Positions 44,399-59,725 of a DNA stretch of 64,000 nucleotides are shown one piece after another (position 1 is the stretch's first letter; every line of letters begins with the position of its first letter). This stretch comes from Acidisphaera sp. L21 (lineage in GTDB: Bacteria > Pseudomonadota > Alphaproteobacteria > Acetobacterales > Acetobacteraceae), in the NCBI RefSeq assembly GCF_009765685.1, contig NZ_LMUY01000001.1:1-64000 (forward strand). The letters run 5' to 3'. The notes under the pieces were generated by a model. That model searched no databases. It was not told where the DNA came from and saw only the letters and a list, made by a program, of their open reading frames with translations. Made by a program: the position numbers and the translations under genes.

Positions 44399-45574
44399 TC
44401 ACGTCGGGGCCAACGCGAAGGCCCCGTCACGTCCGGAATTCGCCTTGGACATCACCAGTTCGGAGTCCGGAAATCCATTATGGTCGCCATCAGTGAAGCG
44501 GTAATTGGCGTACAGCGCCGGGTAGGCGGTTTGCTGGTTCCACCATCCCTCGATCTCCGTCGGGGATGACCCGGCGTTGCGCACCGCGTCGGCGATCAGG
44601 TTGATCGCATCGGCCCCGGTCAACACCCACCACAGCGTCGTATCCGCCAGTTCGATCTTGCCCTTGATCTCGGCAACGAAGGCCTGCACCCGTTCCGGCA
44701 GTTTGCCGTTCGCGTCATACGTCGTGCTTCGGGTGCCGTAGATATAGACCTTGTCCCAATTCCCCGGCTTGTCCAGCAAACGGCCGACATCGCCGGAGCC
44801 CATCGTGGAGTGGCCGACAAATGGCACGTCCCACCCAATGGCGGCCCGTGCATTCAGCAGCCTCGCCACCAACCCGGTCGACACGGTCCAGACGATAACG
44901 GCCTGCGCCCCAGACTCACGCATTCGAAGCATGTCGGGTGTCAAATCGGGTTGGCCGGCGTCGATCTGGGCGCGGTACGTGACCTTCAATCCATTGGTTT
45001 CAACATCGGTGGCGGAATCCGTCACCATCATCGTGCCATACCCGGTGCTATCGCCAATCACGGCGACGTTGGCCGCCTTCAACGTATCGTGGCAGTACCG
45101 CCGCGGCACCTCTGCGCATTGCAGATTGTTTGGGGCGATGCGGTAGGCCTGTGGGTATTTCTTGTCGACCAGCGAATTCACGCCGCAAATATGCACGTTC
45201 GGGATGTTTCGCCGCGCGACGATCGGCGTGGTGGCCAAACCTTCGCCAGAGTTATTCGGTCCCCATAGCGCGTGCACCTTCGCACTGCTAATCATCTCCT
45301 GCACGGCGTTGACCGATTTCGTCGGATCACCCTGAGTATCGCGCGTCACCATCTCGATCTTGCGGCCGTTCACGCCGCCGGCGGCGTTGATCTTGTTGAC
45401 CACGTAGCCGACACCGCGATTATTGCCGATACTGGGCGCGGAACTGGGCCCCGTCAGCGCCGCCGGGTAGCCGATCAGGATCGGCGAACTATCGGCAAGC
45501 GCCGGGCGAGCGAGGCCGCCCGCTCCCGCCAGCGCGATTGAACCTGCGTTGAAGAAGCGCCGTGTGATTGCCAT
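44399..45574 (-). CDS. Branched-chain amino acid/urea-type ABC substrate-binding protein
   Basis: 391 residues. A Tat-like signal (TRRFFNAGSIALAGAGGLA) leads to ILIGYPAALTGPSSAPSIGN, the normal family start, followed by INAAGGVNGRKIEMVTRDTQGDPTKSVNAVQEMI. The ATG at 45574 is chosen because the longer frame lacks a signal peptide at its start. It is divergent from the IclR gene and, past it, the LivH and LivM-LivG genes, which are the likely transporter partners. Confidence 0.9.
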   Translation of the reverse strand: MAITRRFFNAGSIALAGAGGLARPALADSSPILIGYPAALTGPSSAPSIGNNRGVGYVVNKINAAGGVNGRKIEMVTRDTQGDPTKSVNAVQEMISSAKVHALWGPNNSGEGLATTPIVARRNIPNVHICGVNSLVDKKYPQAYRIAPNNLQCAEVPRRYCHDTLKAANVAVIGDSTGYGTMMVTDSATDVETNGLKVTYRAQIDAGQPDLTPDMLRMRESGAQAVIVWTVSTGLVARLLNARAAIGWDVPFVGHSTMGSGDVGRLLDKPGNWDKVYIYGTRSTTYDANGKLPERVQAFVAEIKGKIELADTTLWWVLTGADAINLIADAVRNAGSSPTEIEGWWNQQTAYPALYANYRFTDGDHNGFPDSELVMSKANSGRDGAFALAPT

Positions 45575-45633
45575 CCCAGGGTTTCCTATCCCGCTGTTTC
45601 CGAGCGGTTCTGGACGCCGCCCTATGAATTCGC

Positions 45634-45646
45634 GTAACCTCGTTAC
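45634..45646. promoter_or_regulatory. Short dyad in divergent promoter region of binding protein and IclR
   Basis: GTAAC-CTC-GTTAC, five-base arms, in the 191-base region between the divergent binding protein (45574) and IclR (45766) genes; GCGTAAC occurs again near 45677. It may be an operator but is short and could be chance. Nothing else coding is seen in this gap. Confidence 0.3.
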
Positions 45647-45765
45647 CCATAAGCCAATGATCACGATCTGTCAACGGCGTAACGAAGGCTGGCCCTTATC
45701 GGCAATGTTCAAACCGCCTTTGTTCCGCTATGCCGGGATGGCAGATTTGATTTTGCGGAGCATCC

Positions 45766-46605
45766 ATGCCTGTCAACACCAACATCGCAGAGGCACAGCC
45801 GGATAACCTGGTGACGGTTCGGCGTACCATGGCAGTCCTGGAAATGCTTGCCGATGCGGTGTCCGGTTTGTCGCTGTCCGATATTGCAAAAGAATTGGAC
45901 GTCAACAAGAGCATCGCCCTGCGCATCACCGGCACGTTGGAGGAGTTGAACTACCTGTATCGCGACAGCGAAAACCGGCGGTTCTACGCCAGCTACAAGA
46001 TCAGCAATGTCGGCCTGCGCCTACTGGGTCGCGCCCGGTTGTTGAGCCAGTGCCAGCCCGAGTTGCGGCGCCTGGCGGAGGAGACCGGCGAATTGGTGCT
46101 GTTCTCCGTGCTGGATCGCGACCAGCCACGCTGGGTCATGGCCGTCACCGGCAGTCGCCGCCGCTTGCAGGTGGAGCCGATGACGTCGATGGAATTTCAT
46201 TCGACGGCGACGGGCAAGGCGTGGTTGGCCACGCTGCCCGATGCGGAGGTCAAGCGGATCCTATCCGGCCGTTTGCGCCCCATCGCAACCAACACCATCA
46301 CCGACATGAAGCAGATGTTGGCGGAATTAAAAGCCATCCGCGCCACTGGTATCAGTTTCAGTAACGAGGAGAACGAGGTCGGCATTGCCTCCGTTGCGGT
46401 GCCAATCCGGCCGGCCGGCTCATCCAGCACTGTCGGATTTGTCAGCATCACTGCGCCACTGGTGCGCGCCAACGATGAGGATTTCGAACGCTACCGCGCC
46501 CTCCTGCTCAAGGCGGCGCGCGTATTGGGCGATAGCTGGCCGTTGCCGGCAACTGCCGAATTCTCCGACGGCGTGACAATTGGCGAAGGCCTGACGGTTC
46601 TCTAG
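45766..46605 (+). CDS. IclR family transcriptional regulator
   Basis: 279 residues. Winged helix: VRRTMAVLEMLADAVSGLSLSDIAKELDVNKSIALRITGTL. Effector domain: ETGELVLFSVLDRD, EFHSTATGKAWLATLP, GISFSNEENEVGIASVAVPI, GFVSITAP. GGAG eight bases before the ATG supports the start. It lies between the divergent binding protein and the LivH/LivM-LivG genes and is their probable regulator. Confidence 0.9.
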   Translation: MPVNTNIAEAQPDNLVTVRRTMAVLEMLADAVSGLSLSDIAKELDVNKSIALRITGTLEELNYLYRDSENRRFYASYKISNVGLRLLGRARLLSQCQPELRRLAEETGELVLFSVLDRDQPRWVMAVTGSRRRLQVEPMTSMEFHSTATGKAWLATLPDAEVKRILSGRLRPIATNTITDMKQMLAELKAIRATGISFSNEENEVGIASVAVPIRPAGSSSTVGFVSITAPLVRANDEDFERYRALLLKAARVLGDSWPLPATAEFSDGVTIGEGLTVL

Positions 46606-46746
46606 CCCGTGCGTTGATTGACATAGCTCGGCGAAAAGTATTACAGGCAACCAGGTTACATAAAAGCAGCGCACAAGACACTGCGAGCCGATATCAGGGG
46701 AAGCGTCGTGAGGTTGAACCCAACTCGACACATCGGGCGCTGACGG

Positions 46747-47607
46747 GTGTTGGCATCCATCCTCGCCTCCGGCTTGGCCATGGGCGCGGTGTACGCGCTC
46801 ACCGCGATGGCCTACAACACCATGTTCGCGGCCTCACGGGTAATGAGCTTCACCACCGGCCAACTCGGCATGCTCGGCGGGGTATTTGGTTCGTTGCTGG
46901 TGCTGCGGTTTCATATGCCCGTTGCGGTCGGGCTCATTCTCGCCATCGCGGGCTGTGCGGCGATCGGCGTGCTCACGGAACGTGTTGCCGTACGGCCGGT
47001 CTTGGCCAAGCTCGATCAGCATCTCTATGTCCTATCGACGCTGGCCCTCGCCATGGCGATTCAGCAACTCGCTGCGATCTTCTGGGGCACGGAACCGCGC
47101 CCCTTTCCGCGCCTGCTCGGCACCGCGGTTGGTGGCGTGTTCGACGAGCGATTTTGGCTGCCGTTGATGGCGTGCGTCGCCGTGATAGGCGGGCTGGAAT
47201 ATCTCTACCGTGGCACACTACTGGGGCGCGCCTTCCTGGCGGTCGCGGAAGATAGTGAGGCCGCCCGCGCCCTCGGCCTGCCAGAACGCCGATTGCGTGT
47301 GGCGAGCTACGCGCTGGCTGGCGGGATCGGCGGCATCGCCGGATTTTTCGGCGGCGAACTGATGCTGGCGTATTTCGGCAACGGCTCAATGCTCAGCTTC
47401 TATGGCTTCATCCCCGTGGCGCTCGGCGGCCTGGGCAATAATCGCGGGGCGATCATCGGCGGCCTGGCATTGGGCCTGCTGCAACAGGCAGCAAATTTCG
47501 CGCTGGGCGGGGTGTTCGCCTCCTGCGCGGTATTTGCCGTGTTCATCGCCGCGCTGCTTGCCGTCCCCGGCGGCATGTTTCGCGGCATTGCGGCACGCCG
47601 GGTATGA
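46747..47607 (+). CDS. Branched-chain-type ABC permease (LivH-like)
   Basis: 286 residues, mostly membrane-spanning. ILASGLAMGAVYALTAMAYNTMFAASRVMSF is the usual LivH start, and YFGNGSMLSFYGFIPVALGGLGNNRGAIIGG the usual end loop. The frame opens at a GTG (46747), with a TTG right after; no strong ribosome site is visible. Its stop overlaps the ATG of the LivM-LivG fusion (ATGA). Confidence 0.9.
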   Translation: MLASILASGLAMGAVYALTAMAYNTMFAASRVMSFTTGQLGMLGGVFGSLLVLRFHMPVAVGLILAIAGCAAIGVLTERVAVRPVLAKLDQHLYVLSTLALAMAIQQLAAIFWGTEPRPFPRLLGTAVGGVFDERFWLPLMACVAVIGGLEYLYRGTLLGRAFLAVAEDSEAARALGLPERRLRVASYALAGGIGGIAGFFGGELMLAYFGNGSMLSFYGFIPVALGGLGNNRGAIIGGLALGLLQQAANFALGGVFASCAVFAVFIAALLAVPGGMFRGIAARRV

Positions 47608-49406
47608 AGATCCAGGCCATTCCGTTGACCGCGGCATCACGCGGAAGCGTTGTCCCAAAAGCCGCGCGGCCGGTGCTGCCTTTCATCGCGGTACTCGCCG
47701 CAGCGATTGCATTGCCATTCGTCAGTGACGATTACTGGACACTCATCGCCACCCGGGCCGCAATCTACTGGATCCTGGTGTCCGGGCTGAACCTCGCCGT
47801 GGGATTTGGCGGCCAATTGGCGATCGGCTTCGTGGCCGTACTTACGTTGGGCGCCTACGTCGCCAGCGTGTTGGCGGCGGGGACGATCACCCTCGCCTGG
47901 CCCGCCTTCGCCGCGCTTGGGGCCGCCGGACTCGCCGGGGCTGTTGCCGGCGGCATCATTGGTTTGCCGGCGTTGCGGCTCGGTTCATTCTATTTCGCCA
48001 TGACGACCCTGGGCTTCGCCACCATCGTGACGCAAGTGGCGCTGGCCTGGACCTCGGTCACCGGCGGCGGCACCGGAGTTGCCGGGCCCAGTCTGCCGGC
48101 ACCGTTCGATACCACGCTGGGGTTATACGGGCTATGCCTCGCGCTGGCCGCGCTGTGCACTTGGATGACAGCCAATATCGCGCATAGCCGGTTCGGGCGT
48201 GGCCTGGTGGCCATCCGCGACGCCGATGTCGCGGCGGAGGCGGTCGGCGTCGCCAAACCCCGCCTGTTGCTGAGCGTCTTCGTATTGTGCGGCACGCTGG
48301 CGGGCGTGGCAGGCGGCCTATTCGCCAGCCTGCAATCCTACATCACGCCCGATGCCTTCACCTTCGACCTATCCGTGCTGTTCTTCATCGCCATCCTCGT
48401 CGGCGGCCGCGGTTCCGTGCTGGGCCCGCTGCTCGGTATCATCGTGCTGACGGTGCTGCCCGAATTAGCCGCGCCCTTGGTCGCCTGGTCGACATTTCTC
48501 TACGCCATCCTGTTGCTGGTCATCGTGCTCACCATACCCGGCGGTCTGGCGGAATTGCTGGATGTGGTGAACCGCCGCCCCATTCCGGCCGGCAGGGTCA
48601 TCTCGCCGCAAATGGACTTGGTGCCGGTGATGCTACCGCCGCGATCCGCCGGCGACAGGCTTGAGCTTCGCGACGTCCTCCTACGCTTCGGTGCCGTGCG
48701 GGCGATCGATGGGCTGGACTTGCAAATACGGCCCGGCCAGGTGCACGGACTCATCGGCCCGAACGGTTCCGGCAAAACCACTACCCTGAACGTCATCAGC
48801 GGTTACGCCGCACCCGAACAGGGACAAATCACTCTCGGCGACACACCGCTGCCCTTCGGACGACCGCATTTGCGCGCCGGGCACGGCATTGCACGCACCT
48901 TCCAGCGTCCACGGATTCTCGGCGAAAGCTCCGTGCTGCAGAACGTGGCATTGGGCGGTAGCATCAACGGCCGGGCCAGCTTCTTCGAAACGTTGCTCAG
49001 TCTGCCGCGCCATCACCGGGACGAAGCACGATTCCGCGACGACGCCCTGCTGGCGCTGCGGCTGGTGGGGCTGGAGGCGCTGGCTGCGGTGCGGGCCGAC
49101 CGTCTCCAGCACAGCGAATTGCGCTTCGTCGAAATCGCCCGCGCCCTGATGCAACGCCCCAGCATCCTGCTGCTGGACGAACCCGCCGCCGGCCTCACCC
49201 CGGGCGAGATCATCAAGCTGGGGCTGCTGATCAAAGCCGTCAGCCGGCAGGGAATCGGCGTCTTACTGGTGGAACATCACGCCGACCTCATCTTCGACGT
49301 CTGCGATCACGTCACCGTGCTGAACCTCGGCCGTGTGCTGGCCTGTGGCACGCCGGCGGAAATACGCTCCCACCGGGAAGTCGTTAGTGCCTATCTCGGT
49401 GGCTAA
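47604..49406 (+). CDS. LivM-LivG fusion: branched-chain-type permease and ATPase in one protein
   Basis: 600 residues. The first ~320 form a LivM-like permease (SGLNLAVGFGGQLAIGFVAV, LRLGSFYFAMTTLGFA). From about 350 an ATPase follows: Walker A GPNGSGKTT, Walker B SILLLDEPAAGLTPGE, switch VEHHADLIFDVCD. The ABC signature is degenerate: where LivG proteins have NLSYGEQ-like residues this one has RLQHSELRFVEIARAL. Permease-ATPase fusions of this type are known but the lost signature glycines are odd. There is no LivF gene in this cluster. Coupled to LivH by overlap. Confidence 0.9.
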   Translation: MKIQAIPLTAASRGSVVPKAARPVLPFIAVLAAAIALPFVSDDYWTLIATRAAIYWILVSGLNLAVGFGGQLAIGFVAVLTLGAYVASVLAAGTITLAWPAFAALGAAGLAGAVAGGIIGLPALRLGSFYFAMTTLGFATIVTQVALAWTSVTGGGTGVAGPSLPAPFDTTLGLYGLCLALAALCTWMTANIAHSRFGRGLVAIRDADVAAEAVGVAKPRLLLSVFVLCGTLAGVAGGLFASLQSYITPDAFTFDLSVLFFIAILVGGRGSVLGPLLGIIVLTVLPELAAPLVAWSTFLYAILLLVIVLTIPGGLAELLDVVNRRPIPAGRVISPQMDLVPVMLPPRSAGDRLELRDVLLRFGAVRAIDGLDLQIRPGQVHGLIGPNGSGKTTTLNVISGYAAPEQGQITLGDTPLPFGRPHLRAGHGIARTFQRPRILGESSVLQNVALGGSINGRASFFETLLSLPRHHRDEARFRDDALLALRLVGLEALAAVRADRLQHSELRFVEIARALMQRPSILLLDEPAAGLTPGEIIKLGLLIKAVSRQGIGVLLVEHHADLIFDVCDHVTVLNLGRVLACGTPAEIRSHREVVSAYLGG

Positions 49407-49429
49407 TCAATCAACCCAGGGAGAGTGAC

Positions 49430-49858
49430 ATGTCGAGTGCGTTGGAAGAAAAGGACGCGATCCGCGATGTGTTGTCGGAATATTGCTTCTGCCTCGATGG
49501 CGGCTTGCACGCGGAGATGGCCGCGTTGTTCACGCCAGACGGCGTGTGGGAAACCGCGTTCGGCAGTGGTGAGGGGCGCGAGGGCATCCGTGCCCTCTTG
49601 GGCCGCATCGGCCGCCCCAGCGGCACGGAGCCACGCGCCGTTCATCTGGTCGGCAACATCCTGATCAAGCTAGATGGCGACACCGCACAGGTAAAATCCA
49701 ATTGGGTGGAGCCGCAGAACAGCCGACGGGGCCCGGTGATCGAGGCCGCCGGCGCCTACTACGACCAGATGGTGAAGCTGGATGGCAAATGGATGTTCAA
49801 GCACCGCCGCATCGACCGCTTCGTCGCCGACACACGCGGTCCTGCCCATGCAAGCTGA
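49430..49858 (+). CDS. SnoaL-like/NTF2-like protein
   Basis: 142 residues with the cone-shaped NTF2-like fold pattern: EEKDAIRDVLSEYCFCLDGG, MAALFTPDGVWET, and late KLDGKWMFKHRRIDRFV. Members are polyketide cyclases, ketosteroid-isomerase relatives or dehydratases; the function cannot be assigned. GGGAGAGTGAC before the ATG is a good ribosome site. It lies between the LivM-LivG fusion and the kinase on the same strand, so it is probably cotranscribed with them. Confidence 0.8.
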   Translation: MSSALEEKDAIRDVLSEYCFCLDGGLHAEMAALFTPDGVWETAFGSGEGREGIRALLGRIGRPSGTEPRAVHLVGNILIKLDGDTAQVKSNWVEPQNSRRGPVIEAAGAYYDQMVKLDGKWMFKHRRIDRFVADTRGPAHAS

Positions 49859-49870
49859 GCTTCGTCGCGC

Positions 49871-51547
49871 ATGAAGAAACTGATCAACGACCCGCGCCAT
49901 GTGGTGCGGGAGCTGCTGGAGGGCGCCGTGAGCCTGGCGCCCAACCAGGCGCTGCTGGCGGCCGAGAACGTGGTCGTCCAATTTGGATTATCCGAAATGG
50001 CTCACCGCCCGGTGGCCGTGATCTCCGGCGGTGGCGCCGGGCATGAGCCTGCCCATGCGGGCTATGTCGGATCGGGCATGTTGGCCGCTGCCGTGGCGGG
50101 TGACGTGTTCACCTCCCCTAGCGTCGACGCGGTGTTGGCCGCGATCCACGCCGCCGCCGGGCCAGCGGGCGCGGTGTTGATCGTAAAGAACTACACCGGC
50201 GATCGCCTGAACTTCGGCCTCGCCGCCGAATTGGCGACCGCTGCTGGGATCCCGACACGCGTGGTTGTGGTGGCCGATGACGTGGCGCTGCACGACACGG
50301 TGGAACCCGGCCGCCGCCGCGGAATCGCCGGGACGGTGTTCGTGCACAAAATCGCGGGCGCCGCAGCCTCGGCCGGGCTGGCGCTGGACCAAGTGGCTGC
50401 GGAGGCGACCGCCGCCGCTTCTTCGGTCGCGACGATGGGTGTCGCACTGGGCTCCTGCACGGTGCCCGCAGCGGGTAAGCCTGGCTTCACGCTGGAAGAA
50501 ACGGAGCTGGAACTTGGCCTGGGCATCCATGGCGAGCAAGGTGTGCGCCGCGCCCCGATGCAGCCAGTGGATGCAATCGTCGACACCATGTTGGACACGA
50601 TCATCACCCAGGCGGCGTTGACGCGCGACAATCGGGTTGCGCTGCTGGTGAATGGGCTGGGTGGCACACCGCCGATGGAATTGGCGATCGTCGCCCGCCG
50701 CGCATTGGCCGTTCTACGCGAACGCGGATTGCGGGTGGAACGTGCCTGGATCGGCAACTTTATGACCGCTCTGGAAATGCCCGGGTGTTCGCTGACCCTA
50801 CTGGCGCTAGACGATGCCCGGCTCGCGCGGCTCGACGCGCCGACACAGGCCCCTGCCTGGCCTGGCGGCGGGCAGGTCCATCCGCTGACTATCATCCCCG
50901 CAACACCAGCGGCTACGGCCACGCCACAACCCGGCGGCCCACCCATCCCCCTGCTACGCGACGTAGCCCTGTCCATCGCCGCTGCGTTCGAGCGGGAGGA
51001 GGCCGCACTGACCGAACTGGACAGCCGCGCCGGTGATGGCGACCTCGGCATCAGCATGGCACGCGGGGCCGCGGCAATCCGTTCATTGCCGGGCGCCCCC
51101 TGGACCTCCCCGGCCACCGCCTTGACCGCCATGGGTGACGCGTTACGCCGGGCAATCGCCGGTAGCTCCGGCCCATTCTACGCGACGGCCCTGCTGCGTG
51201 CCGCGCGCGAAATCGACAATGGCGGCGATTGGGCCGCCGCCTTCGCCGCGGGCGCGGCATCCGTAACCGAGCTTGGCGGCGCGAAGCCTGGCGATCGCAC
51301 GATGGTCGACGCGTTGGACCCAGCCGCCACCGCCTTCACTGCGGCCATGATGGCAGGATTGGGCGGCCCGGCAGCGTGGCAGCGCGCCGTATCGGCTGCG
51401 GAACAGGGCGCCGCGAATACCGCCACCATGCGCCCCCGCCTCGGCCGCGCCGCCTATTTGGGTGATAGGGCGATCGGACATCAGGACGCCGGTGCAGCTG
51501 CCGTTCTGGTGTGGATGCGCGCCATCCAGGCAACGCTGAACACATAG
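49871..51547 (+). CDS. Dihydroxyacetone kinase, fused DhaK-DhaL (ATP-type)
   Basis: 558 residues. N-terminal DhaK domain: HVVRELLEGAVSLAPNQ, VISGGGAGHEPAHAGYVG, VLIVKNYTGDRLNFGLAAE, and the His of LGIHGEQGVRR that binds the carbonyl of the substrate as a hemiaminal. The C-terminal DhaL domain (from about 370) has the Asp-rich ATP site in SRAGDGDLGISM and a GDRTMVDALDPA loop. A two-domain ATP-dependent form, as in Citrobacter, rather than the PTS-linked version. Related enzymes phosphorylate triose or four-carbon sugars such as erythrulose, so the substrate may not be dihydroxyacetone. Confidence 0.92.
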   Translation: MKKLINDPRHVVRELLEGAVSLAPNQALLAAENVVVQFGLSEMAHRPVAVISGGGAGHEPAHAGYVGSGMLAAAVAGDVFTSPSVDAVLAAIHAAAGPAGAVLIVKNYTGDRLNFGLAAELATAAGIPTRVVVVADDVALHDTVEPGRRRGIAGTVFVHKIAGAAASAGLALDQVAAEATAAASSVATMGVALGSCTVPAAGKPGFTLEETELELGLGIHGEQGVRRAPMQPVDAIVDTMLDTIITQAALTRDNRVALLVNGLGGTPPMELAIVARRALAVLRERGLRVERAWIGNFMTALEMPGCSLTLLALDDARLARLDAPTQAPAWPGGGQVHPLTIIPATPAATATPQPGGPPIPLLRDVALSIAAAFEREEAALTELDSRAGDGDLGISMARGAAAIRSLPGAPWTSPATALTAMGDALRRAIAGSSGPFYATALLRAAREIDNGGDWAAAFAAGAASVTELGGAKPGDRTMVDALDPAATAFTAAMMAGLGGPAAWQRAVSAAEQGAANTATMRPRLGRAAYLGDRAIGHQDAGAAAVLVWMRAIQATLNT

Positions 51548-51563: not shown

Positions 51564-52370
51564 CTAGAAGCGATCGCGATGACGGTCGATGAAGGGCAGC
51601 AGCAGCGCGCACAACACCGCCGGGCTTTGGATCGCGGCGAAATGCCCGGTGTCGAGCGTCACATACGTGGAGCCGGACACCTGCGTCGCTATCGCGGCCG
51701 TCTGCTCGGGCGGGCGGGCGGAATCAAGGGTGCAGCCGATGAACAGACTGGGCGCGGTGATCGTGCCGAACACGCCCGTCAGGTCGGATGCGACCAACAT
51801 GCGGAACACCGCGGCGAAACTCGCCGGGTCATTGGCCAGCCAGCGTAGGCGCGTCGCGGCAAATCGCTGCGGGTTCTGTGCGCGCAGGATCTCGGGATAG
51901 GACGTGGCAAGGGATACCGCCTCGATCGTCCGCAAACCATCGCACTCGAACTTCGCGATCATTGCCAAAGTGGCCGCTCTGCGGTCGGGCGGGATGCTGG
52001 TGGCGGGGCTTGATACCAGCAGCATCGCTGTCCGCGCGCTATGCCGGGCTGCGAAACGCAGGGCGACATTGGCGCCCACGGCACAGCCGACCAATGCCAC
52101 TGGGGCACGCAGATCCAGCGCGTCCAACAGCGCGCCCAGATCATCGGCAAGTTGGTCGCCGCTTACCTCGCCACGGATTTTCTCCGACAGGCCGGCGCCG
52201 CGCATGTCGTAGCGCAATATGCGGTAATGCGGCTGGAGCATCGGAGCCAGTGCATCCCAGGACTCCAGCGTGCCCGCCATTTCGTGCAGCAGCACAATCG
52301 TCTCTGGCCCGGCGCCAGACAATTCGTAGCGCAACGACACGCCGCCAGCATCCACCCACGCGATGGCCAT
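51564..52370 (-). CDS. Alpha/beta hydrolase with Cys at the nucleophile position
   Basis: 268 residues. The fold pattern is normal: oxyanion-region VLLHEMAGTLESWD, YDMRGAGLSEK, and the late His in LDTGHFAAIQSP. The nucleophile elbow reads VGCAVGANVAL, that is G-C-x-x-G in place of the usual G-x-S-x-G; a Cys nucleophile is known in dienelactone hydrolase. Layout is close to 3-oxoadipate enol-lactonase. It is the last gene of the BKACE-Liv operon, overlapping LivF by one base, so it may act on a lactone or thioester in that pathway. Confidence 0.85.
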   Translation of the reverse strand: MAIAWVDAGGVSLRYELSGAGPETIVLLHEMAGTLESWDALAPMLQPHYRILRYDMRGAGLSEKIRGEVSGDQLADDLGALLDALDLRAPVALVGCAVGANVALRFAARHSARTAMLLVSSPATSIPPDRRAATLAMIAKFECDGLRTIEAVSLATSYPEILRAQNPQRFAATRLRWLANDPASFAAVFRMLVASDLTGVFGTITAPSLFIGCTLDSARPPEQTAAIATQVSGSTYVTLDTGHFAAIQSPAVLCALLLPFIDRHRDRF

Positions 52371-53080
52371 CAGAAGAAATGCCAGAAATTGGACTCACGC
52401 GCCTCATCGGGCGAGCCGTCGAACACCACGGCGCCGTTGTTCAGGATGGTGACGTGGTCGGCGATCTTCATCGAGGCGGACACGTTCTGCTCCACCAGCA
52501 CCGCGCCCACCCCGGCGCTGCGACAGACCTCACGAACCATGTCGAACAGCCGCTCCACCAAATTTGGCGCAAGGCCGATCGAAGGTTCGTCCAGCAGGAT
52601 GCATCTCGGCGAGCCGAGCAGCGCCAAGCCCAGCGCCAGCATTTGTTGCTGCCCGCCGCTCAGGCTGCCTGCCAGCGTGCTCAACCGGCCGGCCAACGCA
52701 GGGAACAGCTTCAGCACCTCCTGCACGCCGATCCGGCTGTCCGGCACACGGCAATTTCGGTCGGCGACGACATCCAGGTTTTCGCCGATGGTTAGCGTTG
52801 CGAAAATGCCCCGCCCCTCCGGCAGCAGGCGCAATCCCTGCGCCACCCGCGCGGACACCGGCTCCTGATCGACGCGGCGGCCGCCCAGCCAGACTTCGCC
52901 TTTTGCCCGGTCGTTCAGGCCCAGAATGGCCTTCAGCGTCGTTGTCTTGCCGCAGCCATTATGGCCCAGCAGCGTCAGCACCTTACCGGGCATCACCTGA
53001 AACGACACGTCATGCAACACGGTCTTGTTGCCGTAGCCCGCCACCAGGCATTTCACGTCCAGCAACGCGGGCTCGCTCAC
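52370..53080 (-). CDS. livF: Branched-chain-type ABC transporter ATP-binding protein (LivF)
   Basis: 236 residues, normal LivF length. Walker A GHNGCGKTT, signature LSGGQQQMLALGLAL, Walker B CILLDEPSIGLAPN and the final EQNVSASMKIAD switch region are present. Its ATG overlaps the LivG stop (ATGA). Complete Liv-type importer with livG, livM, livH and binding protein to its right. Confidence 0.93.
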   Translation of the reverse strand: MSEPALLDVKCLVAGYGNKTVLHDVSFQVMPGKVLTLLGHNGCGKTTTLKAILGLNDRAKGEVWLGGRRVDQEPVSARVAQGLRLLPEGRGIFATLTIGENLDVVADRNCRVPDSRIGVQEVLKLFPALAGRLSTLAGSLSGGQQQMLALGLALLGSPRCILLDEPSIGLAPNLVERLFDMVREVCRSAGVGAVLVEQNVSASMKIADHVTILNNGAVVFDGSPDEARESNFWHFF

Positions 53081-53844
53081 AACGCGCCTCCAAAATAAAT
53101 CTCGCCCAGTTTCGGGTCGGCGACGATGGCGGCGGGTTCGCCCTGGGCCAGCACGTGGCCCTGGTGCAGAAACACCACGCTATCGGCCAGGCGCTGCACG
53201 ATCCTGGTGTTGTGCTCCACCACCAGAAACGTCCGCCCCGCGGCCTTTAGCCGCAGCACCAGGGCGATCATCGCCTCCAACGCTTGCGCACTGAGGCCGG
53301 ATGTCGGTTCGTCCAGCAGCAGCAATTCGGCCCCGCTGGCCATCAGCCGCGCGACGCATAACAGCTTCTGCTCGCCGTAACTCAGATTGCGCACGGCGTC
53401 GCGGGCGCGGTGCGCCAGCCCCACCTCCTCCAAGATCGACATCGCCGCCGCCATTCGCCGCTTGCGTTCGATCTCGGTACGGATCGGCCGCAGGATCGGG
53501 CGGAACGGGTTTTCGTCGGTGCGGCTGGGCAGGTAGACCGTGACGTTATCCAGCACCGACAGATCGGCAAACAGCCGCAGATTCTGAAAGCTGCGGCAAA
53601 TGCCCAGCCCCACGATCCGTCGCGAGCCCATGCGCGTCAGCACCTGGCCGCGAAACCGCACCTGGCCGGCATCTGGACGGATGAATCCGGTAATAACGTT
53701 GAACACGCTGGTCTTGCCCGCGCCATTCGGCCCCACAAGGCAGGTGATTTGCCCGGGTTCGATGGCGAAGCTGCAATCGTCCAGCGCCTGCAACCCGCCG
53801 AACCGCTTCGACACGCCGGTTACGTCCAGATATGGCCCGCTCAT
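53077..53844 (-). CDS. livG: Branched-chain-type ABC transporter ATP-binding protein (LivG)
   Basis: 255 residues. Walker A GPNGAGKTSVFN, Q-loop ICRSFQNLRLFADLS, signature LSYGEQKLLCVARLM, Walker B LLLLDEPTSGLS and switch EHNTRIVQRLAD. All key residues are kept, in contrast to the degenerate fused LivG at 47604. It overlaps livF and livM by four bases at each end. Confidence 0.93.
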   Translation of the reverse strand: MSGPYLDVTGVSKRFGGLQALDDCSFAIEPGQITCLVGPNGAGKTSVFNVITGFIRPDAGQVRFRGQVLTRMGSRRIVGLGICRSFQNLRLFADLSVLDNVTVYLPSRTDENPFRPILRPIRTEIERKRRMAAAMSILEEVGLAHRARDAVRNLSYGEQKLLCVARLMASGAELLLLDEPTSGLSAQALEAMIALVLRLKAAGRTFLVVEHNTRIVQRLADSVVFLHQGHVLAQGEPAAIVADPKLGEIYFGGAL

Positions 53845-54704
53845 AGCCGGCGCCCCGCGATGCCCTGGGGCCGGAACAGCATGAACGCGATCAGCATCAG
53901 CCCATATAGGATCTGCCGCAACGGCCCCGCCGCGTCCGAGGGGATTGGCAACACGCTCAGCACCTGCGGCAGCGCCGTCAGCAACGCCGGGCCAATCAGC
54001 GACCCGGCGAGCGTGCGCGCGCCGCCCACCACAATCATGGTCAGCAACAGGATCGACGCATCGATATCGAACGAGCCGGGATCGATGAAACTGAGGAACC
54101 CGGCATACAGCCCACCTGCCAGGCCGACGAACATGCCCGATAGCGCCGACACGCCGACCTTGGCGGCCAGCACGCTTTTACCCGCGGCGGTCACCGCCAA
54201 TTCGTCTTCGCGGATCGCATTGATCAGCCGGCCGAACGGCGACCGCAACACCAGCCAGAAGAACAACGCCGCCGCCGCCAGCACGATGCTGGATAGCAGG
54301 ATGAACGCCCCTGGCTCGTCCAGATCACGTCCGAACACGTTAGGCGGCGGCACCCCGGCCAGGCCCGACGCGCCGCCCGTGATGTCTGTCAGGTTCATGA
54401 ACACCGCCGTCGCCGCGATCTGGATGCCGAAGGAGGTGACGACGAAGTAATCCCCGGCGATTCGCAAGGCTGGGAGCGCCACTGCGAGATTTGTCAACGC
54501 GCACAGAATCAGCGCTGCCGCCATCGCCACCGGAAATGACGCCCAGTCGTTCAGCGTCAGGATGCCAACGGTGTAGGCGCCAATGCCGAAGATGGCGCCC
54601 TGCGATACCGAGAAGATTCCGGTTACACCCACCAGCAAATTGGTCGACATCGAGGCCAGCGCGTAAATCTCGGCGATTGCCAGATAGCTGAGGAAAAAGT
54701 TCAT
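53841..54704 (-). CDS. livM: Branched-chain-type ABC permease (LivM)
   Basis: 287 residues. LAIAEIYALASMSTNLLVGVTGIFSVSQGAIFGIGAY is the family start, followed by ALRIAGDYFVVTSFGIQIAATA. The ATG at 54704 has GAGG just upstream and lies 16 bases after the LivH stop. A longer in-frame start (54740) would overlap LivH. Channel partner of LivH. Confidence 0.93.
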   Translation of the reverse strand: MNFFLSYLAIAEIYALASMSTNLLVGVTGIFSVSQGAIFGIGAYTVGILTLNDWASFPVAMAAALILCALTNLAVALPALRIAGDYFVVTSFGIQIAATAVFMNLTDITGGASGLAGVPPPNVFGRDLDEPGAFILLSSIVLAAAALFFWLVLRSPFGRLINAIREDELAVTAAGKSVLAAKVGVSALSGMFVGLAGGLYAGFLSFIDPGSFDIDASILLLTMIVVGGARTLAGSLIGPALLTALPQVLSVLPIPSDAAGPLRQILYGLMLIAFMLFRPQGIAGRRL

Positions 54705-54720
54705 CGGGCGCCTCGCCGAG

Positions 54721-55587
54721 CTAGCGCGGCCGCCGGGCAAATAGCCCGGTGGGTGCCACGATCATCAGGATCACGAACAACCCGAACGTTGCCGCAATGC
54801 TCCATTGCCCGGGGATCACCAGGGTGGAGGTGGTTTGCAACGCCGCCAGGATCACCGACGTCACGAACGCGCCGAACAGATTACCCATCCCTCCGGCAAT
54901 CATCGCAATCGTCGCTGTCAGCAATACCAGCGTGCCGGTGTAGGGCTGCAATCCATGATCCAGCGCGGTCAGGCTACCCGGCACCGCCAGCACGCCGGAC
55001 GCTATGGCCATGACCGTGATGTAGACCCGACGCGGCTCCAACCGGGTAATCTCCGCCAGGAATTCGTTCGCCGCCACCGCGCGCGTGCGCTTGCCCAGCG
55101 AGGTGTAGCGTGACCAGGCCAACAAGCCAGCAAAGATCACCAGACTGCTCACTGCCAGCAAGATCTGCGGCATGCTCAACCGGATGCTGCCAATTCCTAC
55201 CGTCAACACTCGCCAATCGGCCGGGATTTGCAGGATGTTGGGGGAAAACAGCGCCGCCATCAGGTTCTGGATCACCACCAGCGCGCCCAGCGAGGCGATC
55301 AGCAATACCAGCGGCGGGGCGTCACGCCGGGCAAGCCGGGTGTATAGTTGATGTTGGATCAGCGCCCCCACCGCGGCGCATACCGCGATGGAACAGATGA
55401 TCGCCAACCAGAACGGCAGCCCGCGCGTGGTGAGGAACCAGGTTGAATACCCGGCGACCGTATAGATGCCCGCGTGCGCGACGTGGAACACGCGGGTGGT
55501 GGAGTAGATCATCGTAAAGGTGACCGCGACCACACCGACGGCGCAACCGGTCACCACGCCATCGGCGAGCAGGTCCAGGAACAGCAT
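54721..55587 (-). CDS. livH: Branched-chain-type ABC permease (LivH)
   Basis: 288 residues. LFLDLLADGVVTGCAVGVVAVTFTMIYSTTRVFHVAHAG is a normal LivH opening, with the LTALDHGLQPYTGTLVLLTATIAMIAGGMGNLFGAF segment later. The ATG at 55587 is chosen because the longer frame overlaps the binding protein gene and is not hydrophobic. Gap to the binding protein stop is 19 bases. Confidence 0.92.
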   Translation of the reverse strand: MLFLDLLADGVVTGCAVGVVAVTFTMIYSTTRVFHVAHAGIYTVAGYSTWFLTTRGLPFWLAIICSIAVCAAVGALIQHQLYTRLARRDAPPLVLLIASLGALVVIQNLMAALFSPNILQIPADWRVLTVGIGSIRLSMPQILLAVSSLVIFAGLLAWSRYTSLGKRTRAVAANEFLAEITRLEPRRVYITVMAIASGVLAVPGSLTALDHGLQPYTGTLVLLTATIAMIAGGMGNLFGAFVTSVILAALQTTSTLVIPGQWSIAATFGLFVILMIVAPTGLFARRPR

Positions 55588-55606
55588 GGGATAGCCTACG
55601 GCGTCG

Positions 55607-56725
55607 CTATTCGCCGACCCGTCCCTCCGCGACCTTCGTGCCAACCAGGTTCTGCACCTGCAGAATGTCGATGTTGCGCACCGCGGTGTTGGTGTCGAAG
55701 CTGATTTTTGCCACACCGTCGAAGGTGCGGATGCGCATCAGTTCGGTGCGAAAGTTCTCGCCCGTCAGTTCTTTCTGGTTGTCGATCAGGCTCTCGGCGA
55801 CACGGGCCAGGATGCGGGTGTCGTTGTAATATTCGCGGGTGTAGACGCTGACGGATTTGGTGCCGAACTTCTTCATGATCGCTTGATCGGTTTCTGGCGG
55901 CAACGCGCCGCGGATGGCGGTGTAATACCAGCCATTGCTACCGGCCAAACCCATCGCGGGCGTCAGGAACGTTGTGCCGACAACGGTGGGGAAGCCGCCA
56001 TGCTGCGTCACCTGATCGACGAATTGCGGCAGGCTGTCACCCTGGATGACGTTGGTGAACACGACATCCGGCTTCGCCGCCGCAGCCTTTAAGATCATTG
56101 GGCGAAAGTTGGTATCGGCCGGCTGGATTGGCTCGTCACTCAGGATCGCGCCGCCGAATTTCTTGAAATTCTCAATGAAATCGTTGCGTCCATCGATCCC
56201 GGCGGCGGAGTTCTCGTAGATGATGGAAGCGGTCTTCTTGCCCAGCGTCTTGGTCAGGTAATGCGCCAACACCTCGGTCTCGTCGCGGGTCAATGGCATG
56301 GTGTTGAACATGTATGGCGACGCCGTGCCCAGTTTATCCGCCTGCGCCGCCGGGTTCAAGACCAGCACCTTCTTGCGCGTTGCCAGCGGGGCGATGGCCA
56401 GGCTGGGGGCGGAGAAGGCGGTGATGACCGCGGGAACCTTGTTGAGGTCGATCTCCCGGTTCAACGCCAGCACCGCCTGGTCCGGCTTGCCCTGCGTGTC
56501 GTCGAAGTTGATCCGCAGCATATGGCCGCGGATGCCGCCAGCCGCGTTGATCTCGTCCATCGCGAATTGCACGCCCTGCTGCTCTTCTTGCCCGACGGAG
56601 GCGCTGGGGCCGGAGGTCGGCAGCAGCGCCGCCAAGGTGATGTCTTCGGCAGCCTGGGCGTAATTGACCCAACTTCCCGTCAGCAGAACGGCAGCGCAAA
56701 CCGACACCCGCAATGTGCAACGCAT
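55607..56725 (-). CDS. Branched-chain-type ABC substrate-binding protein
   Basis: 372 residues with a signal peptide (LRVSVCAAVLLTGSWVNYAQA). The mature start ITLAALLPTSGPSASVGQEEQQGVQFAMDEINAAGGIRGHMLRI is typical of the LivJ/K group; ligands of the family now include aromatic acids and amides. The ATG at 56725 has GGGGAG about nine bases upstream. It lies 68 bases after the BKACE gene in the same direction. Confidence 0.92.
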   Translation of the reverse strand: MRCTLRVSVCAAVLLTGSWVNYAQAAEDITLAALLPTSGPSASVGQEEQQGVQFAMDEINAAGGIRGHMLRINFDDTQGKPDQAVLALNREIDLNKVPAVITAFSAPSLAIAPLATRKKVLVLNPAAQADKLGTASPYMFNTMPLTRDETEVLAHYLTKTLGKKTASIIYENSAAGIDGRNDFIENFKKFGGAILSDEPIQPADTNFRPMILKAAAAKPDVVFTNVIQGDSLPQFVDQVTQHGGFPTVVGTTFLTPAMGLAGSNGWYYTAIRGALPPETDQAIMKKFGTKSVSVYTREYYNDTRILARVAESLIDNQKELTGENFRTELMRIRTFDGVAKISFDTNTAVRNIDILQVQNLVGTKVAEGRVGE

Positions 56726-56793
56726 TTGGATAGTCTCCCCGCCTGTTTTTCTGCGTGACTTTGCCACGCAGCTTATTGTCGTGCGACGATAGC

Positions 56794-57729
56794 CTATTTT
56801 GCGGGAATGCCTAGCATGGCGCGGGCCTCGGCCGGGGTTGCGGTGTCGATGTTCAGTTCGTCGAAGATATGCTTGATCTTCGCCACCTGCTCGGCATTGC
56901 TCTTGAACGGCTTGCCCGGGCGGTCGAACAGATTGTCCTCCTGGCCGATGCGAATATGGGTGCCCATCATTCCGCCGAACGTCGCCGTTCGAATGTTGCG
57001 CATGCCAGTGCCGTGGGTGAACAGCACCAATTGGTCGCCGAACATCCGTTCCGCCGTGTTCTTCAAATGCAACAGGTGGTCGATGTCGGAGGTGATGCCA
57101 CCCAGGATGCCGGTGAGGAATTGCACGATGATCTTGCCGCCGACTTTGCGACGGTTCAAATGGTGTTCCAGCACCGTCAGGTGGCCGACGTCGTAGATCT
57201 CGAACTCCATAGCGATCCCGGCGTCGGTCAGCATCGCAATCATAGCATCGATGGTCTTAAAACTGTTGGAGGTGACGACGTCGTAGCTGCCGGGGCCAAA
57301 CGAGTCTTTCTCCCACTGGTGCTTGAACCCGGCGACATCGGCCTCGCTGAACCCCTGCTCACGCGCCTTCTTGAAGTTGCCGTAGTTCATCGAGCCGACG
57401 ATCACGGTCGCGATTTCCGGCCGCAGCGCCAGCACAGCCTCCAGGCGGCTTTCGGCCGTGGCGCCTAGGGAGGCGGACATGTTGATGATGGCGTCGCAGC
57501 TCGCCTTGATGGGGGAAATGAAGGCGTCCCAGTCCGCCGTCACGTTGCTGGGGCGGCCGTCCACGGGGCTGCGCGCATGCAAATGCACGATCGCGGCCCC
57601 CGCCTTCACACCCTCGATCGATTGCTCGGCGATCTGCTGGGGCGTTATCGGCAGGTAGGGCGACATGGACGGCGTCATGGATGCGCCAGTCGACGCGCAG
57701 GTGATGATGATTTTCTTGGCGGCTGCCAT
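56794..57729 (-). CDS. Beta-keto acid cleavage enzyme (BKACE, DUF849)
   Basis: 311 residues. The family reaction condenses a beta-keto acid with acetyl-CoA to give acetoacetate and a shorter CoA ester, with a Zn2+ ion. The Zn ligands fall in VHLHARSPVDGRPS; early IIITCASTGASMTPSMSP and later GSMNYGNF, FEIYDVGHL, and GTGMRNI complete the pattern. Relatives act on 3-keto-5-aminohexanoate and dehydrocarnitine; the exact keto acid here is unknown. First gene of the operon with the Liv-type transporter and alpha/beta hydrolase, and divergent from a LysR gene. Confidence 0.92.
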   Translation of the reverse strand: MAAAKKIIITCASTGASMTPSMSPYLPITPQQIAEQSIEGVKAGAAIVHLHARSPVDGRPSNVTADWDAFISPIKASCDAIINMSASLGATAESRLEAVLALRPEIATVIVGSMNYGNFKKAREQGFSEADVAGFKHQWEKDSFGPGSYDVVTSNSFKTIDAMIAMLTDAGIAMEFEIYDVGHLTVLEHHLNRRKVGGKIIVQFLTGILGGITSDIDHLLHLKNTAERMFGDQLVLFTHGTGMRNIRTATFGGMMGTHIRIGQEDNLFDRPGKPFKSNAEQVAKIKHIFDELNIDTATPAEARAMLGIPAK

Positions 57730-57762
57730 GGCCGTGTCCCCCGTATGTTATTGGGCGGAACT

Positions 57763-57777
57763 CTCGATTGCACCGAG
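57763..57777. promoter_or_regulatory. Possible LysR box between BKACE and LysR genes
   Basis: CTCG-N7-CGAG contains T-N11-A in the 158-base divergent region between the BKACE start (57729) and LysR start (57888). Short arms make this a weak candidate, but its position suits control of the BKACE operon. Confidence 0.35.
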
Positions 57778-57887
57778 CAGGCGGTCAACATAGTTACGGG
57801 AACACTGGGATGAGTTAAACTGATGTGAAGCCGCGGCGATGTGAGGCGAGGCAAAATCGAAACAGGAGCCGGTTGAGGAAATGACAA

Positions 57888-58787
57888 TTGGCTGAGCGCC
57901 TACCACCGCTCAACGCGCTGCGTGCGTTCGAGGCTGCTGGCCGCCTTCTCAGCTTCACCCATGCCGCGACGGAGCTGCTCGTTACCCCCAGCGCGATCAG
58001 CCGGCAGATCAAATTGCTGGAGGATCATCTGGCGGTGCCGCTGTTCCGCCGCGGTTACCGGGAGGTGACGCTGACCCTCCCCGGTCGCGAATACCTCGAG
58101 ACGCTCACCGACGCTTTCGCGCGCATCGCTGCCACGACGAGGCGGGTTGCTGGCACGCGCGACCAGCGGCCCCTGCACATCTTCGCCTCGATGATGTTCA
58201 CCATGCATTGGCTGATGCCACGGCTGGCCAGTTTCGAGGGCATTTCCGCCGGCGGCATTCGGCTCAGCACCTCGATCGCGGCGGTGCCGAACCCGTTCAG
58301 CGACGACGAGGTGGATGCCGCCATCTATCTGGGGCAGGCCGAGTGGCCCGGCATGGTGTGCCATCGCCTGCTCAGCGGCCGGGTGGTGCCGATCTGCAGC
58401 CCGGCGTTGTTGGGTGCAAAACCGTTGCGCAGCCTGGATGACCTGCCGCAGCACACCTTGCTGCACTCCGCAGTATTCCCGGATAGCTGGGCGACATGGC
58501 TGGCGGCGAACGGACGCATGGACATTGCCGGGCTACACAGTATCAGCTTCGGCAGTTCGTCACTGGCGTATCAGGCGGCGATGGAGGGGATCGGCGTGGC
58601 GTTGGGCCGCGCGGCGCTGATCCGCACGGATGTGGCCGCCGGACGGCTGGTGACCCCGATTGAGCGGACGGTCGAGGATGGCAACGCATACTACCTGGCC
58701 TACCGCGCCAGCACGTCGCGCGATGCCGCGTTACGGCCGTTCCTGCAATGGCTGATGGCGCAGGCCAGCGGCGACACTCCCCCCTAA
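57888..58787 (+). CDS. LysR family regulator, GcvA type
   Basis: 299 residues. The opening LPPLNALRAFEAAGRLLSFTHAATELLVTPSAISRQIKLLE is the GcvA-subgroup helix-turn-helix, and LFRRGYREVTLTLPGREYL follows. The start is a TTG (57888) seven bases after a GAGGAAA site; the only nearby ATG (57881) is in another frame and ends at once. It is divergent from BKACE and the likely regulator of the BKACE-Liv operon. Confidence 0.9.
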   Translation: MAERLPPLNALRAFEAAGRLLSFTHAATELLVTPSAISRQIKLLEDHLAVPLFRRGYREVTLTLPGREYLETLTDAFARIAATTRRVAGTRDQRPLHIFASMMFTMHWLMPRLASFEGISAGGIRLSTSIAAVPNPFSDDEVDAAIYLGQAEWPGMVCHRLLSGRVVPICSPALLGAKPLRSLDDLPQHTLLHSAVFPDSWATWLAANGRMDIAGLHSISFGSSSLAYQAAMEGIGVALGRAALIRTDVAAGRLVTPIERTVEDGNAYYLAYRASTSRDAALRPFLQWLMAQASGDTPP

Positions 58788-58843: not shown

Positions 58844-59725
58844 ATGAGCGAACTCCCCACCCATCAAGTCCCCGGCGTCCACCACCGCCGTATCGGCGAT
58901 GTCCTCGTCACAGCACTCAGCGACGGGTTCCTGGAGGGCTCGTTGGCCGTGCTGCAGAATATCAGCCAGGAGGATGCCGCGGCCTTACTGGTCGCGTCGT
59001 TCCGGCCGGTCCCGCGGCGCACCTCGGTGAATTGTTTCCTCATCCGCAGCGCGGGGCGTGTGGCGTTGATCGATTGCGGATGTGCCGACAGCATGCAGCC
59101 GACAGCGGGCAAGCTGTTCGACAACCTGGCCGCGGCAGGGGTCGACCCGGCGGCGATCGACACGGTCTTCCTGACGCATATGCACCCCGATCATTCCAAT
59201 GCCCTGGCCGACGCGTCCGGCGCAGCCCGGTTCCCCGCGGCCGAACTGCGCATGCACGAGCGCGAACTGGCCTACTGGAACGACGACGCCGAGGCCGCCC
59301 GCGTGGCCGAGACGAAGCAGGGTGTCGCCTACTTCCCAAGCGCGCAGGCGCAGATGGCGCCCTATCGGGGCAAGATCCGCACTTTCCAGGATGGAGAGGT
59401 CTTCCCAGGGGTCACCGCGGTGCCGCTGCCGGGCCACACGCCGGGCCATACCGGATACCGGGTCGGTTCCGGCAGCGATAGCCTGCTGATCTGGGGCGAT
59501 ATCGCCCACGTGCCGGAGGTTCAGGTGCCCCGGCCAGAGGTGACCATCCTATTCGACGTCGACCCGGCGCAGGCCCAAACCACCCGCCGGGCTATCCTGG
59601 CCTCGGTCACGGCTACCCGGCAGCTCGTCGCTGGCATGCACCTGCACTTCCCCGGCTACGCCCATGTCCGCGAAGAGCATGGCGCCTACCGCATCGTGCC
59701 GGAGGCGTGGCGGCTGGAGTTTTAA
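58844..59725 (+). CDS. MBL-fold metallo-hydrolase
   Basis: 293 residues. Zn-binding HMHPDHSN (HxHxDH) is near residue 113, followed by the His of PLPGHTPGHTGYRV, the bridging Asp in IWGDIAH and His in HLHFPGYAHV. The layout is that of lactonase/methyl parathion hydrolase relatives (quorum-quenching-type lactonases), but substrates vary widely. The ATG at 58844 gives the SELPTHQVPGVHHRRIGD start. It follows LysR by 56 bases and converges on the acyltransferase, overlapping it by four bases. Confidence 0.88.
   Translation: MSELPTHQVPGVHHRRIGDVLVTALSDGFLEGSLAVLQNISQEDAAALLVASFRPVPRRTSVNCFLIRSAGRVALIDCGCADSMQPTAGKLFDNLAAAGVDPAAIDTVFLTHMHPDHSNALADASGAARFPAAELRMHERELAYWNDDAEAARVAETKQGVAYFPSAQAQMAPYRGKIRTFQDGEVFPGVTAVPLPGHTPGHTGYRVGSGSDSLLIWGDIAHVPEVQVPRPEVTILFDVDPAQAQTTRRAILASVTATRQLVAGMHLHFPGYAHVREEHGAYRIVPEAWRLEF

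Follow-up and report, generated by a model that had tools for sequence, protein, structure and literature searches.

A conserved operon of Acidisphaera sp. L21 joins a Liv-type importer to a rare variant lineage of the BKACE family

What does a beta-keto acid cleavage enzyme (BKACE, DUF849) do when it is encoded in one operon with a complete branched-chain-type importer, and which kind of compound might such an operon serve? The question is raised by positions 51,564 to 57,729 of a 64,000-nucleotide stretch of Acidisphaera sp. L21 (contig NZ_LMUY01000001.1, positions 1 to 64,000), hereafter the window. The locus is a real, conserved operon, predicted from its sequence to be catabolic, and carries an unusual BKACE lineage. 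Our leading reading, to which we give a probability of roughly 0.48, is that it serves a lactone- or ester-derived 3-oxo acid, which the variant BKACE would cleave with acetyl-coenzyme A (acetyl-CoA). The genes on which this reading draws are listed below; scores against curated models are given throughout as bits obtained of bits required.

56794..57729, minus strand: DUF849/BKACE-family enzyme of the variant clade (Pfam BKACE PF05853, 254 bits, cut-off 24.8)
55607..56767, minus strand: HAAT/Liv-type periplasmic binding protein (Peripla_BP_6, 178 bits; alternative GTG start at 56707)
54721..55587, minus strand: LivH-type permease (BPD_transp_2, 66.6 bits for the longer frame; start from codon scoring)
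53841..54704, minus strand: LivM-type permease (BPD_transp_2, 126 bits)
53077..53844, minus strand: LivG-type ATPase (ABC_tran, 108 bits)
52370..53080, minus strand: LivF-type ATPase (ABC_tran, 94 bits)
51564..52370, minus strand: PcaD-like alpha/beta-hydrolase-fold protein whose nucleophile position holds Ala (GCAVG; Abhydrolase_1, 60.9 bits)
57888..58787, plus strand: GcvA-type LysR regulator, divergent (NF008352, 291.7 of 288 bits)
58844..59725, plus strand: metallo-beta-lactamase (MBL)-fold, lactonase/esterase-like enzyme (4le6, 224 bits; 5hif, 191 bits)

The first-pass annotation of this DNA had described a run of seven minus-strand genes, a complete branched-chain-type importer and a divergent GcvA-type LysR gene. 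All of this holds: the seven open reading frames (BKACE, binding protein, livH, livM, livG, livF and alpha/beta fold) have the expected Pfam matches, all five importer components are among them, and the LysR protein passes its subfamily model. With codon-scored starts, neighbouring frames of the operon overlap by at most 4 bases or leave gaps of fewer than 90; the longer, 331-residue livH frame would overlap the binding-protein gene. The lysR gene lies 158 bases from the BKACE gene, and the MBL gene, absent from the earlier account, starts 56 bases downstream of lysR on the same strand. No sigma-70-like site turned up when 57600-58000 was scanned for promoters.

The gene run is not a product of chance, because the same order is conserved in Rhizobium sp. 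BK313 (L005; our own labels are C for contigs, L for loci and G for genomes) and a second version stands on contig C35 of Acidisphaera sp. L21. The BK313 operon has the same seven genes in the same order, with identities to the window of 79% (BKACE), 74% (binding protein), 71% (LivH), 75% (LivM), 75% (LivG), 78% (LivF) and 62.5% (hydrolase); its divergent LysR is 64% identical, and an IclR gene (70%) is inserted after the BKACE gene. The C35 version comprises Liv genes, a binding protein, a glutathione S-transferase (GST), LysR, BKACE, MBL and hydrolase. Here the identities are 60% for BKACE, 57% for LivM, 64% for LivG, 58% for LivF and 48-61% for LivH, which is in two pieces, and 44% for the binding protein, 44% for the hydrolase, 45% for LysR and 53% for MBL. 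Four BKACE-family genes are present in the Acidisphaera sp. L21 genome in all.

The window BKACE belongs to a rare monophyletic clade, a new lineage variant of the known family. Twelve intact clade loci were found: the window, C35, L005, single copies in G106, G005, G1030, G1121, G1144 and G1158, two copies in G1004, and one on a plasmid of Aminobacter sp. MSH1. The copy on a plasmid of Bradyrhizobium sp. 195 is a broken remnant and was dropped from all counts; on a Bradyrhizobium plasmid, the remnant of the gene set lies at 13511-15636 of L048. Counting the own genome, clade members occur in 3 of 200 genomes of the family (own, G106 and G005; matches of at least 60% identity) and in 8 of 395 genomes of the order (E 1e-90). 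At the same E value none of 384 other genomes of the class and none of 397 other genomes of the phylum held a further member, leaving the own genome as the sole match. In a tree of the 12 variants and 36 other BKACE sequences, a fully supported branch (100/100), 1.59 changes per column long, separates the variants from the rest; the 36 comparison sequences are those that were fetched, 29 of them from the same family of genomes, and do not sample all of DUF849. The closest relatives of the window BKACE are those of L005 (79%) and L057 copy a (66-67%), and relatives of the binding protein and LivM on plasmids gave no closer BKACE-linked lead. Literature searches on BKACE and DUF849, judged by titles and abstract openings, returned no description of this clade or of its Ala-type alpha/beta partner.

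The first-pass annotation had treated this BKACE as an ordinary one, which its active site is not. In the alignment of 12 variant and 36 other sequences, the HxH and Glu zinc ligands, the catalytic Glu, the Tyr and the Asp after the zinc Glu are kept in every clade member; in the window enzyme these include H49, H51 and E264 as zinc ligands, E177 as the Glu base and Y179. The remainder of the site has changed. In 12/12 variants the T/S-T-G-G loop is short by two residues and has no Gly pair; where exactly the gap falls is uncertain, HMMER putting it later, and the shortening by two stands. The usual Asn, present in 35 of the 36 others, is Ile in all 12, and the usual Arg (Arg226/Arg254, once proposed as the base), likewise present in 35 of 36, is Met in three variants, including the window enzyme (M243), Pro in seven and Thr in two. 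Conversely, basic residues stand at window positions 121, 247 and 270 (K121, R247 and R270) in all 12 variants and, at each position, in at most one of the 36 others; judging from the alignment, they could hold a second acidic group. For Kce, the lysine enzyme, the motifs at the residue numbers used here agree with the alignment.

How much of the chemistry is likely to survive these changes? E171 rather than R254 (PdKce numbering) is reported as the catalytic base (PMC11961710), and the active-site Tyr is tied to BKACE chemistry, BsfD having Phe there (PMC12871164). The variants thus retain the residues of the best-supported retro-Claisen mechanism, namely the zinc ligands, Glu and Tyr, and what has been rebuilt is the frame around the substrate. 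Loss of the Arg was considered as proof of new chemistry and rejected: alone it proves nothing, because the C66 BKACE of the same genome (L045, 9596-10528), with Ala in its place, nevertheless scores 545.5 of 430 bits on the 3,5-dioxohexanoate model, and the PDB relatives 3chv and 3fa5 also lack it. The window enzyme itself falls under the cut-off of all four NCBIfam BKACE models that it matched; the 3,5-dioxohexanoate model NF053538 is nearest (321 of 430 bits), and the 3-oxoadipate model NF053568 gives 120 of 350.

The same residues bear on a rival in which the variant is a zinc barrel for another reaction, namely hydrolysis, hydration, decarboxylation or acyl transfer without cleavage. It would account for the loss of the Gly-Gly loop, Asn and Arg in 12/12 members and for the long stem branch, and it has precedents: BsfD is a DUF849 member with another activity (PMC12871164), groups G6 and G7 are described as lacking BKACE activity (PMC4922564), and 3chv and 3fa5 have no Arg either. 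Set against this, the catalytic Glu and the Tyr are kept throughout the clade, whereas BsfD has Phe for Tyr, and the Ala-bearing C66 enzyme passes a BKACE model. We regard a different reaction as unlikely.

BKACE enzymes take part in carnitine and lysine degradation in other bacteria, and ordinary use of this kind, with the remaining genes elsewhere, has to be weighed. The first-pass annotation had argued that these roles do not fit easily, and the alignment and model scores side with it. The position of Kce Glu14 is occupied by Ser in the window BKACE, and the lysine-fermentation Kce model NF052387 gives 179 of 382 bits. A search of the own genome with a single query, one Roseomonas BKACE-linked dehydrogenase, gave five matches, of which only the best was scanned; it is a 3-hydroxyacyl-CoA dehydrogenase (NF004783, 446 of 347 bits) and was not recognised as carnitine 3-dehydrogenase (170 of 592 bits). 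One KamA-family gene is present in the own genome, and matches to this family occur in 9 of 14 control genomes. On the residue, the model shortfall and the dehydrogenase match, both roles were rejected and are hardly credible. Kce Glu14 binds the amino group in the lysine enzyme, and a triacetate enzyme has Trp there (PMC10470551).

Certain genes recur around the clade BKACEs. Within 1.5 kb of the BKACE gene, an MBL gene was found at 9/12 variant and 0/36 other loci, a GST gene at 5/12 and 0/36, a LysR gene at 6/12 and 1/36, and a relative of the alpha/beta protein at 5/12 and 2/36. The neighbour queries came from variant loci, and a repeat that left out each locus's own queries left the variant counts unchanged; four of the 36 comparison loci (L014, L022, L025 and L034) are shortened by contig ends. 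At L051, which is G1004 copy a, all four neighbours are absent within this distance and an IclR relative is present; IclR relatives also lie beside or near the clade BKACEs of L005 (70%), L057 (57%) and L058 (57%). The window MBL falls into the branch of OPHC2, methyl parathion hydrolase and dihydrocoumarin hydrolase, its nearest solved relatives being the organophosphorus hydrolase 4le6, the reconstructed lactonase/dihydrocoumarin hydrolase 5hif and methyl parathion hydrolases. MBLs at seven other clade loci are 53 to 57% identical to it, and that of Aminobacter is of another type. Quorum-signal degradation by an AidB-like MBL was considered and dropped: the AidB model gives 241.5 of 360 bits, and the nearest structures are organophosphate and dihydrocoumarin hydrolases.

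The importer is a less constant companion. The first-pass annotation had tied uptake to the BKACE, and the two do share one operon here; across the clade the type of importer is not constant, window-type Liv genes occurring in only 3 of the 12 stretches (window, L005 and C35). TctC-type binding proteins are found in stretches L042, L043, L057, L058 and L061, an SBP_bac_6 protein with ABC genes in L059 and an NMT1-type protein in L060, while the Aminobacter stretch has a complete tripartite importer and, about 4 kb further on, a distant Liv-type unit (LivM 30%). The window importer falls short of the curated LivH, LivM, LivG and LivF models (59.8 of 379, 110 of 366, 190 of 362 and 158 of 441 bits). 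Its binding protein reads NPAAQ where two aligned amino-acid-type binders show a Thr, a residue that presumably has a role in such proteins. Another link between a BKACE and an importer is seen at Roseomonas L006 and L010, where an ordinary BKACE gene directly follows a 3-hydroxyacyl-CoA dehydrogenase gene and Liv-type importer genes precede the pair.

The last gene of the operon, taken as an ordinary hydrolase in the first-pass annotation, lacks the nucleophilic Ser. Its nearest curated family is PcaD, at 124 of 255.85 bits. Ala replaces the Ser in all nine relatives within the 12 clade loci (GCAVG, GTAVG, GCALG and GTAAG), the proteins of L058 and L060 being distant from the other seven; in the stretches read, L042 and both L057 copies showed no relative. 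The Aminobacter stretch has another alpha/beta gene, 13 kb off, with an Asp motif. As a control, the 12 matches to the window protein in its own genome were compared: Ala is found in the three closest, Ser in eight and Asp in one.

A third Ala-type alpha/beta gene of Acidisphaera sp. L21 lies on C100 (L084, 9447-12472) with genes for a CMD-like protein, a protein resembling short-chain dehydrogenases/reductases and an amidohydrolase. The CMD-like protein reaches 22.6 bits, just below the Pfam cut-off of 23, and the amidohydrolase is nearest to 4-sulfomuconolactone hydrolase (226.5 of 500 bits). This group is possibly a separate lactone pathway.

Further clues to the reaction come from related gene sets. 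Ala-type relatives with 40% identity, among the closest found on plasmids, occur in Paracoccus sp. MC1862 and Pseudomonas luteola, each in a set with MBL, 3-oxoacid CoA-transferase A/B, thiolase, acyl-CoA dehydrogenase and CoA ester lyase genes; a BKACE-like sequence was not found in either stretch. Behind the clade BKACE of Aminobacter sp. MSH1 come an MBL and then an EthD protein, a distant relative of MmlI. The MBLs of P. luteola, Paracoccus and Aminobacter are 81%, 56% and 51% identical, respectively, to the first-position MBL of the mml operon of Cupriavidus necator H16, which from the gene order we read as MmlL. That order, mmlLRFGHIJ, and the roles of the genes are described in PMC6449761, where a DUF849 gene in a catechol operon of the same strain is also proposed to replace CoA-transferase and thiolase; for Methylobacterium pca operons, PMC8963497 puts forward a DUF849 enzyme as substitute for PcaIJ/PcaF. 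The BKACE-free sets and the mml-like MBL links suggest a BKACE that stands in for a CoA-transferase and a thiolase on a lactone-derived 3-oxo acid.

A more specific version of this idea is a BKACE form of the methylmuconolactone (modified 3-oxoadipate) route, in which a lactone would give a substituted 3-oxoadipate and then an acyl-CoA such as methylsuccinyl-CoA. The Aminobacter neighbours (MBL 51%, EthD/MmlI-like) resemble that route, and in Pseudoroseomonas cervicalis an MBL 63% identical to that of the window stands with Liv genes, an SMP-30 gene and a muconolactone isomerase (MmlJ-like CatC); both BKACE-free clusters also carry acyl-CoA dehydrogenase and CoA ester lyase genes. The P. cervicalis stretch, however, has no BKACE, and the Aminobacter EthD protein scores only 48 of 180 bits on the MmlI model. 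The isomerase family (CatC, TIGR03221) occurs in 1 of 8 clade genomes as against 9 of 30 genomes from the same family that have no clade BKACE, these 30 being hand-picked from the family list and one of the nine matches lying under the curated cut-off. With that family absent from the own genome and rarer in clade genomes, methylmuconolactone as the exact substrate found no support and was set aside, and the route as a whole appears improbable.

We infer the class of compound, the order of steps, the reaction and its regulation from the gene content, conservation, altered residues and gene associations described above. The Liv-type importer would bring a small organic compound into the cell, and a carboxylate or a lactone is probable. 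The lactonase-like MBL and the serine-less alpha/beta protein would convert this compound, or a product made from it elsewhere, to a 3-oxo (beta-keto) acid. The variant BKACE would then cleave the 3-oxo acid with acetyl-CoA in a zinc- and glutamate-dependent retro-Claisen reaction, giving a shortened acyl-CoA and acetoacetate, and would thereby substitute for the CoA-transferase and thiolase found with similar genes in other gene sets. The compound would be sensed by the LysR protein. Two 3-oxoacid CoA-transferase A family genes elsewhere in the genome could recycle the acetoacetate.

Several observations weigh against this pathway. With the usual Gly-Gly loop, Asn and Arg gone from the active site, the reaction itself may differ, and the alpha/beta protein may lack hydrolytic activity. 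An MBL gene is lacking within 1.5 kb of both closest BKACE relatives (L005 and L057 copy a). L057 copy a is directly followed by an alpha/beta gene that has the usual Ser motif (GHSTG) and, at the limit used, shows no relationship to the window protein. Identity between the window MBL and the protein at the MmlL position of H16 is only 24%. BKACE-free clusters with CoA-transferase and thiolase are seen in two cases only, a Massilia putida relative having neither in its listed stretch, and a search for the muconolactone isomerase family TIGR03221 in the Acidisphaera sp. L21 genome gave 0 matches. A broader claim would be that a new, fast-diverged DUF849 lineage, its active site rebuilt to do without the usual Arg and Gly-Gly loop, cleaves 3-oxo acids that derive from lactones and are possibly dicarboxylic. 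Its partner, an alpha/beta protein lacking the nucleophile, would be an isomerase, tautomerase or general-base hydrolase and not a serine hydrolase, and together they would form an undescribed, apparently mobile route with interchangeable importers; in this extended form we consider the proposal doubtful.

The surroundings of the operon raise one more candidate substrate. Next to the operon, 44399-51547 holds a second HAAT-type unit (binding protein, IclR, LivH and a fused LivM-LivG), a SnoaL-like protein and a fused DhaK-DhaL kinase, with the following regulator as a probable member of a wider island.

45766..46605, plus strand: IclR regulator (IclR_C, 110 bits)

In BK313 a second Liv unit (78%) follows the operon, and its window counterpart is the IclR gene and second Liv unit at 45766-49406. 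Because the IclR and permease/ATPase genes of this unit are conserved beside the BK313 operon, at 70 to 78% identity, the island may be wider than the seven-gene operon. HpcH/CitE-type lyase genes are also present in the window at 43454-44314 and 15749-16624, the latter between two CoA-transferase family III genes (14556-17154).

The kinase gene (49871-51547) adjoins the operon, and split homologues stand beside the L005 operon, which would suit a sugar-acid lactone as substrate: a lactonase, oxidation to a 3-keto-2-deoxy acid, the BKACE and then a kinase would act in turn, as in deoxyribonate catabolism, which uses a BKACE and a lactonase (PMC6365646). The same scheme would fit the SMP-30 lactonase genes that both the C35 and the Aminobacter locus carry. 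Yet the operon has no dehydrogenase, the DhaK parts are 41% identical and arranged differently, and only the window and L005 among the 12 loci show such a kinase, so that a sugar-acid lactone seems quite improbable.

Compared with known systems, the lactone- or ester-derived pathway that we favour has partial parallels. The mml operon of C. necator H16 likewise combines an MBL, a LysR and a step to a 3-oxo acid, and the Aminobacter locus shares its MBL type; it differs in using a CoA-transferase and the isomerases MmlI and MmlJ, none of which is encoded in the window operon. PcaD, the 3-oxoadipate enol-lactonase, is the nearest curated family of the alpha/beta protein, which has Ala for the nucleophilic Ser; the frequency of this Ala-type partner points to an unassigned reaction and a testable pathway. 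In the Methylobacterium pca operons a DUF849 gene also stands where CoA-transferase and thiolase are missing; it is predicted to belong to group G4, for 3-oxoadipate (PMC8963497), whereas the window enzyme reaches about a third of the score required by the 3-oxoadipate model. The 3,5-dioxohexanoate BKACE (NF053538) is nearest among curated models, and it differs in its active-site motifs as well as in score. With the BKACE family at large, represented by Kce of Cloacimonas and BKACE15 of Paracoccus denitrificans, the window enzyme has in common the fold family, the zinc ligands and the catalytic Glu and Tyr, while its clade lacks the Gly-Gly loop, has Ile for Asn and Met, Pro or Thr for Arg, and shows new conserved basic positions. 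The family was divided by active-site residues in 2014, some groups showing no BKACE activity (PMC4922564), and published mechanisms disagree on whether R254 or E171 is the base (PMC11961710). A clade that keeps the catalytic Glu and the zinc site and drops other parts could show which residues the retro-Claisen reaction needs.

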